32,324 bases of DNA from Gammaproteobacteria bacterium (GTDB taxonomy: Bacteria > Pseudomonadota > Gammaproteobacteria > SZUA-152), in assembly GCA_022340845.1 (NCBI GenBank), contig JAJDNG010000007.1, positions 1 to 32,324 on the forward strand, read 5' to 3'. Position 1 is the stretch's first letter; each line of letters opens with the position of its first letter. The position numbers and the translations under genes were made by a program. The notes below the pieces were generated by a model, which had not been told where the DNA came from, made no database searches, and saw only the letters and a program-made list of their open reading frames with translations. This document shows positions 17,151-21,521 of this stretch, piece by piece.

Positions 17151-17156
17151 TATAAT
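17151..17156 (+). promoter_or_regulatory. -10 element TATAAT upstream of the DUF6502-like gene
   Basis: Exact TATAAT; the -35 is weak (ttttcc at 17-bp spacing). Confidence 0.5.
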
Positions 17157-17164
17157 GGTACCTT

Positions 17165-17186
17165 TTTTGGGAGAGGGTTCCCAAAA
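17165..17186. promoter_or_regulatory. operator-like inverted repeat TTTTGGGA-N6-TCCCAAAA
   Basis: Perfect 8-bp arms immediately downstream of TATAAT and 9 bp before the ATG. Confidence 0.75.
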
Positions 17187-17194
17187 TTGTCATT

Positions 17195-18046
17195 ATGAGC
17201 AGCGAATTGACGTCACAAAAAGCGCTTTTTAAAGCGGTATACAAATTAATGCGCTCCCTGGTACGCATTCTGTTACGTAATGGCGTTCCCTACGGAGCAT
17301 TTACTGATATTGCCAAACGCGCGTACGTGGATGTGGCAATGAAAGAATTTGGGGTGCCCGGCAAAAAGCAAACCAATTCCCGGGTGGCTACTATCACTGG
17401 CTTATCCCGTAAAGAAATCCAGCGCGTTATTAGTCTCAATCTCAGCGGTGATCAGGAAAAAGATATGGTGGTGCGCTACAATCGCGCCGCCCGAGTGGTG
17501 TACGGCTGGGTACATGACAGAACCTATGCTGGCCAGGATGGCGATTCTGCCATTTTGCCGTTTGAGGGGGATACTCCCAGTTTTAGCTCCCTGGTCAGAA
17601 CTTACAGTGGCGATGTGCCGCCGCGCGCCATATTGGATGAATTACTGCAAGTGGGCGTGGCGCAGCGGCTGGATAATGGAAACATTAAGCTGTTGGAACG
17701 GGCTTATATCCCCACCAAAGGCGAAGCGGAGAAACTGGTGTTATTGGGCCGGGACGTGGCAGGTCTGATTTCCACGATGGATAAAAACATTCACGGCGTG
17801 CACGACATCCTTTATTTTCAGCGTAAAGTGTTTTACGACAATCTATCCGAAGAAGCGGCCGTGGAATTTCACGAGTTTTTACTCAACAAAGGCCAGCCGC
17901 TGTTGGAAGAGTTTGATCAATGGATGGCCCAGCGCGACCGCGATGTGAATCCTGATGCCGGCGGCAGCGGCCGCAAAGCCGTTGGCGTGGGTTTGTATTA
18001 TTTCGAAGAAGAACTTCAACAAGATCCTCCGGAGTCCTCCTCATGA
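17195..18046 (+). CDS. DUF6502-like protein, putative HTH transcriptional regulator
   Basis: 283 aa; N-terminal KAVYKLMRSLVRILLRNGVPYGAFTDIAKRAYVDVA...NSRVATITGLSRKEIQRVI is typical of this family and contains an HTH-like segment. Confidence 0.75.
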   Translation: MSSELTSQKALFKAVYKLMRSLVRILLRNGVPYGAFTDIAKRAYVDVAMKEFGVPGKKQTNSRVATITGLSRKEIQRVISLNLSGDQEKDMVVRYNRAARVVYGWVHDRTYAGQDGDSAILPFEGDTPSFSSLVRTYSGDVPPRAILDELLQVGVAQRLDNGNIKLLERAYIPTKGEAEKLVLLGRDVAGLISTMDKNIHGVHDILYFQRKVFYDNLSEEAAVEFHEFLLNKGQPLLEEFDQWMAQRDRDVNPDAGGSGRKAVGVGLYYFEEELQQDPPESSS

Positions 18047-19446
18047 ATTGTTCCTTGTTACGCTTTTTTTCATTAAGCGCGTCCTTAAGCATAGTGCTCA
18101 GTTTGCTCGTCGCGGCGTGCAGTGGTGGTGAATCCGGCACCGGTTTCGGCGGTAGTTACCCCAAAGTGTCTGTGGGAGTGATTACCGGTTTCGGCAGTGT
18201 GTTTGTCAATGGCGTTGAATTCGATACTTCCCGGGCTGAGATCAATGTCAATGAAGCTATAGCCAGTGAAGAGGACTTGGCCATCGGCATGGTAGTGAGC
18301 GTGGTGGGTTCTACCGACCAATCTCAGGTTAGCGGCAGCGCTGATGCGATATATTACGAAAGTGAAGTGTGCGGCATAGTCAACCAAAACGATCAGCCTG
18401 ACCAATTGGAAATTATGGGCCAGACCGTAAAATACGATAGTGAAACGGTGTTCGATAGCAGTATTGATACCGTGGCGTCAGTTGCGGAAATTCCGGTGGG
18501 CGCTGTAGTGGAAATCACTGGATACCGCACTGGCGACAACAGCTTGCATGCCACTCAGATTACTTTGCTACAGAGCCAGTATAATGACGGCGAGCAATTG
18601 ATCGTTAACGGTGTTGTGACCGCCGGTGTCTCGTCCGGGAAATTTTCGATGGGCACACTCACGGTGGTGGTTGACGATGTAACGCAATTTATTAACCTCC
18701 CGAACAACCAGATCACACCTGGCATGGCGATAAAAGTTAAAAGCAAGCGGGGTCTGGTGAATACTAATGAGTTGCTCGCAGATCAAATTCAATTGAACAA
18801 AAATCAATACGTGGTCGCAGGCAATGTTCTGGAAATCGAAGGCATTGTGATGAATCCGAATCTGCAAGCCAATGAATTTCAGTTAAACGGATATACCGTC
18901 TATTTTTCAGCTCAAACCAGGTTTGTCGATGGCGCTGAGGATAATCTGGCCGATGGCGTAAAAGTGGAAGTGGAAGGTGTATTGCTGTCGGACAATCAGC
19001 TGGAAGCTGGCGAAATTACTTTTCGCAAATCAGCTAAAATCGATTTAATTGCACCAGTGACTTCCATCAATATTGCTGACAACCAAGTAAACCTCTCGGG
19101 CGTCAACGTACGACTGACCAATAGAACTTTGTTGTAAGACGACGATAGAATCACCAAAATCAGGCAATTCTCGCTGGAGGATCTTAGCGACGGCGATAGA
19201 GTCAAAATTAAGGCTTTCCGGGATAACCTTACTCAGCAAATTATAGCGATCCAGTTCCGACGCGTAGAAGCGCAATCCGCAGATTCAACCTTTGAAATTA
19301 CGGGTATTTTGGATGAATTGAACAATGCGCAGGCGATTATCGCCGGTGTCGCCGTCGATACTGCAGGTTTGTCTCCCGTGCTCACCAATGCCGACGTTGG
19401 AACTGATGTTACGGTTGTCGGTACGATCCCCATTTCCACCCAATAG
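18043..19446 (+). pseudogene. DUF5666-like lipoprotein gene interrupted by an in-frame TAA (19135-19137)
   Basis: Lipobox LLVAACSGG; repeated ~70-80 aa beta-rich units. The frame continues past the TAA for 102 codons to TAG 19444-19446, with continuing DUF5666-like sequence. Intact part is 18043-19137 (364 aa). Confidence 0.7.
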
Positions 19447-19503
19447 CCTTTCGTCCGGGTCCTGCAACTATCTCTTCAATGACCAACCGCCACATCGTGT
19501 CTA

Positions 19504-19539
19504 CGGTGTGGCCAAGAACGCTTCACCGCCTTCTTTTTT
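19504..19539 (+). terminator. weak candidate terminator after the DUF5666-1 frame
   Basis: CGGTG...CACCG followed by ttctttttt; only 5-bp arms. Confidence 0.3.
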
Positions 19540-19638
19540 CCAGCGTGTTCACTTAATTTCTTGTAAATCATAACGTTAAACTCCTTTTCCCAATATCACG
19601 CGTAATCCGTTTGGAACACAAACTGCGAATAATCCCTA

Positions 19639-19666
19639 TTGACGGTCGTTTGCTGCAGTGTATAAT
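19639..19666 (+). promoter_or_regulatory. sigma70-like promoter of the second DUF5666 gene
   Basis: TTGACG - 16 bp - TATAAT. Confidence 0.75.
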
Positions 19667-19672
19667 CTTGCA

Positions 19673-19696
19673 TGTTTGGGAATATATTCCCAAACA
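19673..19696. promoter_or_regulatory. 24-bp perfect palindrome, operator-like
   Basis: TGTTTGGGAATATATTCCCAAACA is identical to its reverse complement; sits at the expected +1. Confidence 0.85.
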
Positions 19697-19701
19697 TAGG
19701 C

Positions 19702-19837
19702 TGGGTGTCACTACAGACAGAAACCGTGCACCCATCGCTCGGTAAAGTGGAAAACATTACCGGCATCACGGCAGTAGCACCTACGGGAGGGAGAGGTCAT
19801 GCGAAGGACATGCGATGACAATGGTGTTTCTGCCGTG
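19702..19837 (+). ncRNA. structured 5' leader: three consecutive predicted hairpins
   Basis: TGGGTGT(19702-19708)/GCACCCA(19728-19734, one G-U); CGGTAA(19740-19745)/TTACCG(19757-19762); CACGGCAG(19767-19774)/CTGCCGTG(19830-19837) enclosing AGCACC/GGTGTT and GTCAT/ATGAC. Confidence 0.55.
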
Positions 19838-19885
19838 TATTTATCCATTCACACAATCAATATTGTTATCAGAGTTTATCTCTAA
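19799..19885 (+). CDS. possible leader peptide (28 aa)
   Basis: MRRTCDDNGVSAVYLSIHTINIVIRVYL*, preceded by GGGAGGGAGAGG; lies inside the structured leader. Confidence 0.35.
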   Translation: MRRTCDDNGVSAVYLSIHTINIVIRVYL

Positions 19886-20045
19886 CCATTAAAACTGATG
19901 CGAAATCACGTCCATCAATAAATATGCCGAACCAGCGCATGAAGCGAGTCGGTTATAACCCAGGTATAAAAACTGTCGGCGATCTAATTACAAAATAACA
20001 GCCCTGTTGCAATGGGCATAACCTATTTTTCCAAGAGGAGGCGTT

Positions 20046-21521
20046 ATGAACTACAGACATCTTTTACTACTCGTCACTCTGTCGTCAACGATGGCATTGA
20101 TCGGCGGTTGTGGTGATTCCGGTAATACCGGTAACGCCAGTTCTTCAGAATCGATTAAATCCGTCGGTGTAGTCAGCAGTGTAAACAGTGGCCAAAGCAT
20201 TAATGTCAACGGTGTAACATACGCTACCGGCCAGAGTGAAGTTGTCAATGAAGAAGATGGCGAGCTCGATGTGGGTATGGTGGTCACGGTAGACGGTACT
20301 ATGGACGAGGATGCTAACACCGGGGAAGCACACAATATCCACTATGAAGCTGAAATCAAAGGCGTAGTGATTGTCAACGATGTCATGGGCAGCAATTCGC
20401 TGAACGTGATGGGGCAGACGGTTCTGGTGGACGATTTGACAATGTTTGTAAGTGAATATCCAAATTACGCCACCTTGGATTCCATCCCGATCAATGCTTA
20501 TGTGGAAGTCAGCGGACTAATGCTCAACGACGGCACATTAAAAGCTACACGTATTGAATTGGAATCGGAAACGTATATGGCGGGAATGCTACTTAAGGTC
20601 AAAGGTAAAATCACTGACGTAGGTGACATGTATTTCACCATAAATGATCTCACTGTAATGTATAACGACACTACGGATTTCATTAATTTAAGCAAAGAAG
20701 ATTTGATGGCGGATATCTGCGTAAAAGTGTTAAGTACACAAGCATTCGACCCCAATACCATGAATTTAACCGCTGACAGTGTCCAAATGAAACACAATGG
20801 CGTGGACGCTGATCATGGTGAAAAAGTGGAGTTGTACGGTGAGGTGACCAGCGATGGAGTGATTGACAATGTGTTCGTATTAAATGACCAGCCGGTGATG
20901 CTTACCGACCGTACGCACTTTGTGCATGGCACCATGGCGGACATTGTCAAAGGCGCAATGCTGCAGGCCAAAGGCCACCTGGATGAAAATAACGTACTGG
21001 TTGCGGAAAAAATTAAATTCCAGAAACCGCATAATGTCATAATCTCCGGTATTGTCGATGCAGTGAATGCGGAAGAAAATTACCTGCAGGTCATGGGCGC
21101 CATGGTTTATGTGGACGAAAACACCTGGTTGAAAGACCATCCCCACAATGGCGGTGAAATCCCAAACAATCCTGATCCTGTGGCTGGTACTAATGAAATG
21201 TTCGCTTTTGGTCTGAGTGATATTGAAGCTGGGAATTTTGTCATGGTTCACGGTGCTTATATGCAGCAAAAACAAGCCATTGAGGCGCGCAAACTCCAGC
21301 GTAAAAAACCGGATCATCCGGCGCAAGTCCATGTGGCAGGTCCGGTAACCGCTATTGACAGCGATAACAATCTTCTGGAAATCGCCGGAGTAAAAGTCGA
21401 TATATCCGGTTTTACCAACCTGACTCCCAGTTTAGGAGATAGGGCCAGTGCCACCGGTGGTTACGATCAAGAATCCATGATCTTAATTCCAATGGAAATG
21501 GATATCGAACCCAAAGAATAA
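20046..21521 (+). CDS. DUF5666-like multi-repeat lipoprotein
   Basis: Lipobox ALIGGCG; about six repeats such as VGVVSSVNSGQSINVNGVTY, IKGVVIVNDVMGSNSLNVMGQTV, ISGIVDAVNAEENYLQVMGAMV; SD aagaggagg. Confidence 0.8.
   Translation: MNYRHLLLLVTLSSTMALIGGCGDSGNTGNASSSESIKSVGVVSSVNSGQSINVNGVTYATGQSEVVNEEDGELDVGMVVTVDGTMDEDANTGEAHNIHYEAEIKGVVIVNDVMGSNSLNVMGQTVLVDDLTMFVSEYPNYATLDSIPINAYVEVSGLMLNDGTLKATRIELESETYMAGMLLKVKGKITDVGDMYFTINDLTVMYNDTTDFINLSKEDLMADICVKVLSTQAFDPNTMNLTADSVQMKHNGVDADHGEKVELYGEVTSDGVIDNVFVLNDQPVMLTDRTHFVHGTMADIVKGAMLQAKGHLDENNVLVAEKIKFQKPHNVIISGIVDAVNAEENYLQVMGAMVYVDENTWLKDHPHNGGEIPNNPDPVAGTNEMFAFGLSDIEAGNFVMVHGAYMQQKQAIEARKLQRKKPDHPAQVHVAGPVTAIDSDNNLLEIAGVKVDISGFTNLTPSLGDRASATGGYDQESMILIPMEMDIEPKE

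Follow-up and report, generated by a model that had tools for sequence, protein, structure and literature searches.

The locus formed by a DUF6502 gene and two DUF5666 genes in a gammaproteobacterial genome raises the question of which protein reads the palindrome TTTGGGA-N6-TCCCAAA, found in identical form at two of its promoters, and to what effect. The window analysed here is the whole stretch of 32,324 nucleotides at the start of contig JAJDNG010000007.1 (assembly GCA_022340845.1). Pfam assigns DUF6502 (PF20112) no function, and a literature search found no mention of DUF6502 or PF20112; a search for the operator half-sites returned mostly CRISPR and primer matches, with none on a DUF6502 regulator among the matches listed. 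DUF5666 appears in the gene list of an Acidithiobacillus ferrooxidans transcriptome (PMC10714799). From sequence comparison, the two palindromes are very probably DUF6502 binding sites. DUF6502 itself is likely to be a one-component regulator that binds the palindrome as a dimer and represses its own operon and separate DUF5666 genes; binding, dimer formation, repression and an inducer are what we infer from the comparisons below. This proposal offers two protein families of unknown function a hypothetical role, together with a DNA target and a regulon, and the near-constant operator makes cross-genome regulon prediction straightforward.

The DUF6502/DUF5666 locus and its promoters

The DUF6502 gene (17195-18046, forward strand), the proposed autoregulatory repressor gene, encodes 283 amino acids and is a full-length member of PF20112, the Pfam match covering residues 9-273 (267.7 bits against a cut-off of 27; E 9.5e-80). 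Its AlphaFold model (pLDDT 82) contains helices at residues 33-51, 61-68 and 72-80, the last two of which lie within the highly conserved stretch KQTxSRxxxxTGLxRKEVxR. Codons 61-80 (17375-17434, forward strand, including SRKEIQR) rank among the family's best-conserved parts, with T68 and R72 invariant, and the helix pair carries invariant or nearly invariant basic residues. We read helices 61-68 and 72-80 as a predicted helix-turn-helix (HTH), on the basis of the model and family conservation rather than recognized homology. A Foldseek search with the model gave no match below E 0.001 (best E 0.23), and its top-ranked neighbours, all non-significant, include many winged-HTH regulators (BlcR, BusR, PcaR, MarR and Fnr). 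A Pfam scan of 41 DUF6502 proteins detected no convincing HTH, a single member matching HTH_29 at E 0.019, and found no cyclic-nucleotide-binding fold with a Crp-type HTH at permissive E values of up to 10. DUF6502 was considered as a member of the Crp/Fnr family and rejected, since none of the 41 proteins scanned gave a Pfam match of that type. The same genome encodes a second DUF6502 paralogue (G000:C215; loci L017 and L058), which is without the operator and has a multihaem-cytochrome-like gene in its vicinity.

Both downstream genes match PF18914 above the cut-off in three stretches each: the first DUF5666 gene (18043-19137, forward strand) with 98.6 bits (E 2.5e-28) and the second (20046-21521, forward strand; 491 amino acids) with 142.3 bits (E 5.4e-42). 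The first overlaps DUF6502 by 4 bp, so that the two are taken to form one operon. It is interrupted by an in-frame TAA (19135-19137), giving a product of 364 rather than about 467 amino acids; a further DUF5666 domain match spans this codon, the frame is open again to 19446, and the copy in a genome of the same genus (G001) is an uninterrupted 482-residue frame. The TAA represents either a pseudogene or an assembly error. Both proteins start with lipoprotein-like signals (the signal type was judged by eye). In AlphaFold, DUF5666 models as repeated OB-fold barrels, with domain-size Foldseek matches that include PilY2, CusF and CcmE. DUF5666 proteins look like exported proteins with tandem OB-fold domains, and such modelled barrels would fit a possible binding role in the envelope.

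Operator 1 (17165-17186, forward strand) reads TTTTGGGA-GAGGGT-TCCCAAAA and operator 2 (19673-19696, forward strand) reads TGTTTGGGA-ATATAT-TCCCAAACA; the 20-mer cores occupy 17166-17185 and 19675-19694. The first-pass annotation had described identical palindromes at two promoters of this locus, with cores 15 and 14 bp after the first base of a TATAAT box, and both the positions and the offsets were reproduced. Given the usual distance from -10 to +1, these offsets predict that both palindromes start near +1. The DUF6502 promoter has its TATAAT at 17151-17156 (forward strand) and a weak -35 element with three mismatches, and the promoter of the second DUF5666 gene (19639-19666, forward strand) is strong by sequence, with a good -35 element TTGACG, a 16 bp spacer and TATAAT at 19661-19666. 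The leader of the second DUF5666 gene, downstream of operator 2 (19697-20045), is unusually long at about 350-370 nt; it folds little better than shuffled sequences (z -1.94) and gave only sub-threshold eukaryotic matches in Rfam, and an Rfam scan of the window found no RNA family.

Abundance of the motif across the genome, which would have counted against the proposal, was not seen: the entire 3.84 Mb genome (289 contigs) holds two exact copies, both in this locus, where about 0.01 would be expected by chance from its 14 fixed bases. Two copies within 2.5 kb, each at a promoter, are thus not attributable to chance. Three additional copies with one mismatch lie outside the window, and no copies with one or two mismatches were found within it. 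A scan of the same genome with a relaxed pattern returned only the two operators and one site close to a contig end; ATTGGGA-N6-TCCCAAT occurs at G000:C248:5337-5356, 20 bp from the end of its contig, and the gene downstream is unassembled.

Distribution of the palindrome across genomes

Relatives, 387 genomes belonging to the class and 80 GTDB contigs supplied the DUF6502 loci, whose upstream regions (330 bp each) numbered 129 once redundancy was removed. Conservation at DUF6502 orthologues, proposed as a check when the palindromes were first noticed, was borne out: exact GGGA-N6-TCCC is present in 76 of the 129 regions. When all 256 four-base half-sites were combined with spacers of 0-14 (3840 combinations), the mean was 0.94 regions, GGGA at any other spacer occurred in 0-6, and the other high-scoring combinations were only shifted or extended forms of the same palindrome (TGGG with spacer 8, TTGG with spacer 10). 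Averaging the sites gives WTTGGGA-(AT-rich 6)-TCCCAAW. About 40% of the regions have no exact core, and several of these loci contain copies with one mismatch that score beyond the 99% threshold set by shuffled sequences; such sites, an upstream operonic DUF5666 gene or contig ends explain some of the missing cores, and others are unexplained, including that of G000:C215. The metagenome-assembled genomes that bear sites are labelled Gammaproteobacteria, Nitrospirae/Nitrospira (Nitrospirota), Deltaproteobacteria, SAR324, Candidatus Binatia and Tectomicrobia, and many uncultured bacteria (labelled Gammaproteobacteria, Nitrospira, Desulfobacterales and others) carry both DUF6502 and DUF5666.

Variants of the site were also seen. 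Upstream of DUF6502 in L021, L033, L042, L082 and L181, paired operators have centres 24-26 bp apart, a spacing suggesting cooperative binding. In L024-L027, from two genera of the same family (g3 and g6), the site upstream of DUF6502 is AACGGGA-N6-TCCCGTT (AACGGGAT-N4-ATCCCGTT), and KTTYSR replaces KQTxSR before the predicted recognition helix. These paired changes represent a possible shift in specificity; as proof of recognition the covariation was discounted, since it may be a single evolutionary event. TTTGTGA-N6-TCACAAA in L043 and a similar site in L167 were set aside as DUF6502 sites because they may be Crp or Rex sites.

Coupling between site and regulator is also evident at the level of whole genomes. 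A scan of 21 DUF6502-bearing genomes gave 64 copies of WTGGGA-N6-TCCCAW and 8 of a reversed-pattern control, and 21 genomes without DUF6502 gave 4 and 8, respectively; 36 of the 64 sites lie at DUF6502 or DUF5666 genes (including two in L232). Among genomes with DUF6502, 34 of 103 contain the stricter form WTTGGGA-N6-TCCCAAW; among those that lack the gene, 10 of 284 do so (Fisher p = 8e-14, the genomes not being phylogenetically independent). Several of the sites seen in DUF6502-less genomes fall within coding frames, as expected of chance matches.

In 23 DUF6502-bearing genomes, DUF5666 genes were sorted into those directly behind DUF6502 and those that are separate. None of the 21 genes directly behind DUF6502 has a site of its own, a count that sets aside long open frames running back across the DUF6502 promoter, whereas a site precedes 14 of the 19 separate genes, some of which lie on different contigs (G001:C7, G045:C26, G350:C275, G388:C3, G211:C3 and G201:C2). 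Of the five separate genes that form the exceptions, L241 does have a weak site, and two follow another DUF5666 gene at short distance. Eight additional separate DUF5666 genes were located in other genomes through their sites, while nine DUF5666 loci from genomes lacking DUF6502 showed no site (0/9). The DUF5666 domain itself occurs in 23/23 DUF6502-bearing genomes and in 6/80 without DUF6502. This distribution, the strongest argument of the present analysis, indicates that site, regulator and targets belong together and links the motif to DUF6502 and DUF5666 rather than to unrelated genes, the point on which the initial proposal could have failed.

Additional palindromes precede genes for membrane 4Fe-4S/pyridine-nucleotide-disulphide oxidoreductases in three families (L275, G388:C38; L276, G060:C1:2217205; L282, G092:C356). 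They also stand ahead of a DUF4266-DUF3570 pair, a multihaem cytochrome and, within one genus, a glycine-zipper gene. Oxidoreductases of that same family, as well as multihaem cytochromes, adjoin DUF6502-DUF5666 in several loci, including Nitrospira. From these few genomes, 4Fe-4S/pyridine-nucleotide oxidoreductases and cytochromes are tentative further targets. It is conceivable, though we would not expect it, that DUF6502 constitutes an unrecognized multi-phylum regulator family with one near-invariant operator and a regulon of DUF5666 proteins, membrane oxidoreductases and multihaem cytochromes, pointing to an envelope redox or metal system.

Proposed mode of action and its alternatives

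In the proposed mechanism, a DUF6502 dimer would bind (T/A)TTGGGA-N6(AT-rich)-TCCCAA(T/A) within the promoter of the DUF6502 gene, thereby controlling the DUF6502-DUF5666 operon, and would bind the same palindrome ahead of separately transcribed DUF5666 genes, here the gene at 20046. Bound DUF6502 would block RNA polymerase at -10 in relatives or at +1 in the window, and repression of both kinds of promoter would hold until some signal releases the protein. The -10 boxes and +1 positions are sequence predictions. A TATAAT-like hexamer lies close to 64 of 84 sites and inside the palindrome in 46, against a random-window background of 5% for the latter; in 36 of the 84 it takes one fixed position, GGGA-N-TATAAT-CCC. 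With the palindrome lying over -10 in many relatives and over +1 in the window, blocking of RNA polymerase, and hence repression, is the likeliest mode. The locus thus presents what marks an autoregulated repressor: a conserved palindrome in its own promoter and a site overlapping the predicted -10 or +1. The earlier suggestion that DUF6502 is an autorepressor that also controls the DUF5666 paralogue is accordingly supported computationally, with DUF6502 as binder and its repressive action being the inferred parts.

Other explanations were weighed against repression by DUF6502. The one that we rate highest, itself improbable, keeps DUF6502 as the binding protein and makes it an activator, or a dual regulator depending on position; in some genomes sites do stand 100-300 bp ahead of the start codon, and paired sites with a 24-26 bp separation occur, but the placement seen at most loci, over a -10-like box or, in the window, over the +1 region, is that of a repressor. 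It is still less probable that a different regulator, for instance of Crp/Fnr type, binds the palindrome and DUF6502 is merely a target. The TGGGA-N6-TCCCA geometry equals that of the Crp site TGTGA-N6-TCACA, and a gene resembling a cyclic-nucleotide-binding regulator adjoins one DUF6502 locus (L236). Across about 100 DUF6502 neighbourhoods, however, only DUF6502 and DUF5666 are widespread and no further regulator recurs widely; moreover, the site stays at background level in DUF6502-less genomes and is found chiefly at the promoter of DUF6502 itself, the usual sign of autoregulation.

The palindromes might instead work as RNA, forming 5'-terminal stem-loops that stabilize the mRNA. Those of the window begin near +1 and would form a terminal hairpin (folding was shown for the second), but the -10-like box inside the palindrome at more than half of the relatives' sites means that there the palindrome would not be wholly transcribed, and the four core bases are conserved at a spacing of exactly 6, with stem-preserving base-pair changes rare; we regard this as very unlikely. 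Short palindromes do arise by chance, yet conservation, the genome-wide count and the controls refute chance inverted repeats as an explanation, and its likelihood is negligible.

Comparison with known regulators

IclR, MarR and BusR winged-HTH regulators are among the structural neighbours of DUF6502, none of them significant and none accompanied by a sequence-family match; the C-terminal part of DUF6502 is without known relative. Parallels are also offered by operator architecture. The Crp operator is TGTGA-N6-TCACA and that of Rex is TTGTGA-N6-TCACAA. Crp/Fnr-type and Rex operators, like the DUF6502 palindrome, have inverted half-sites of 5-7 bp with 6 bp between them, and are bound by a dimeric winged-HTH protein; DUF6502 may bind likewise. 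The SRKEVxR of the DUF6502 helix may resemble the Crp recognition helix SRETVGR, a likeness that, together with that of the operator geometry to Crp sites, serves as a lead only. DUF6502 differs in its half-site, TGGGA as opposed to TGTGA in Crp, in having neither a cyclic-nucleotide nor a Rossmann domain in the Pfam scan, and in having its palindrome placed over -10 or +1. Autoregulators that bind palindromes are already familiar; the assignment of the DUF6502 family to them, its operator and its DUF5666 regulon appear to be new.
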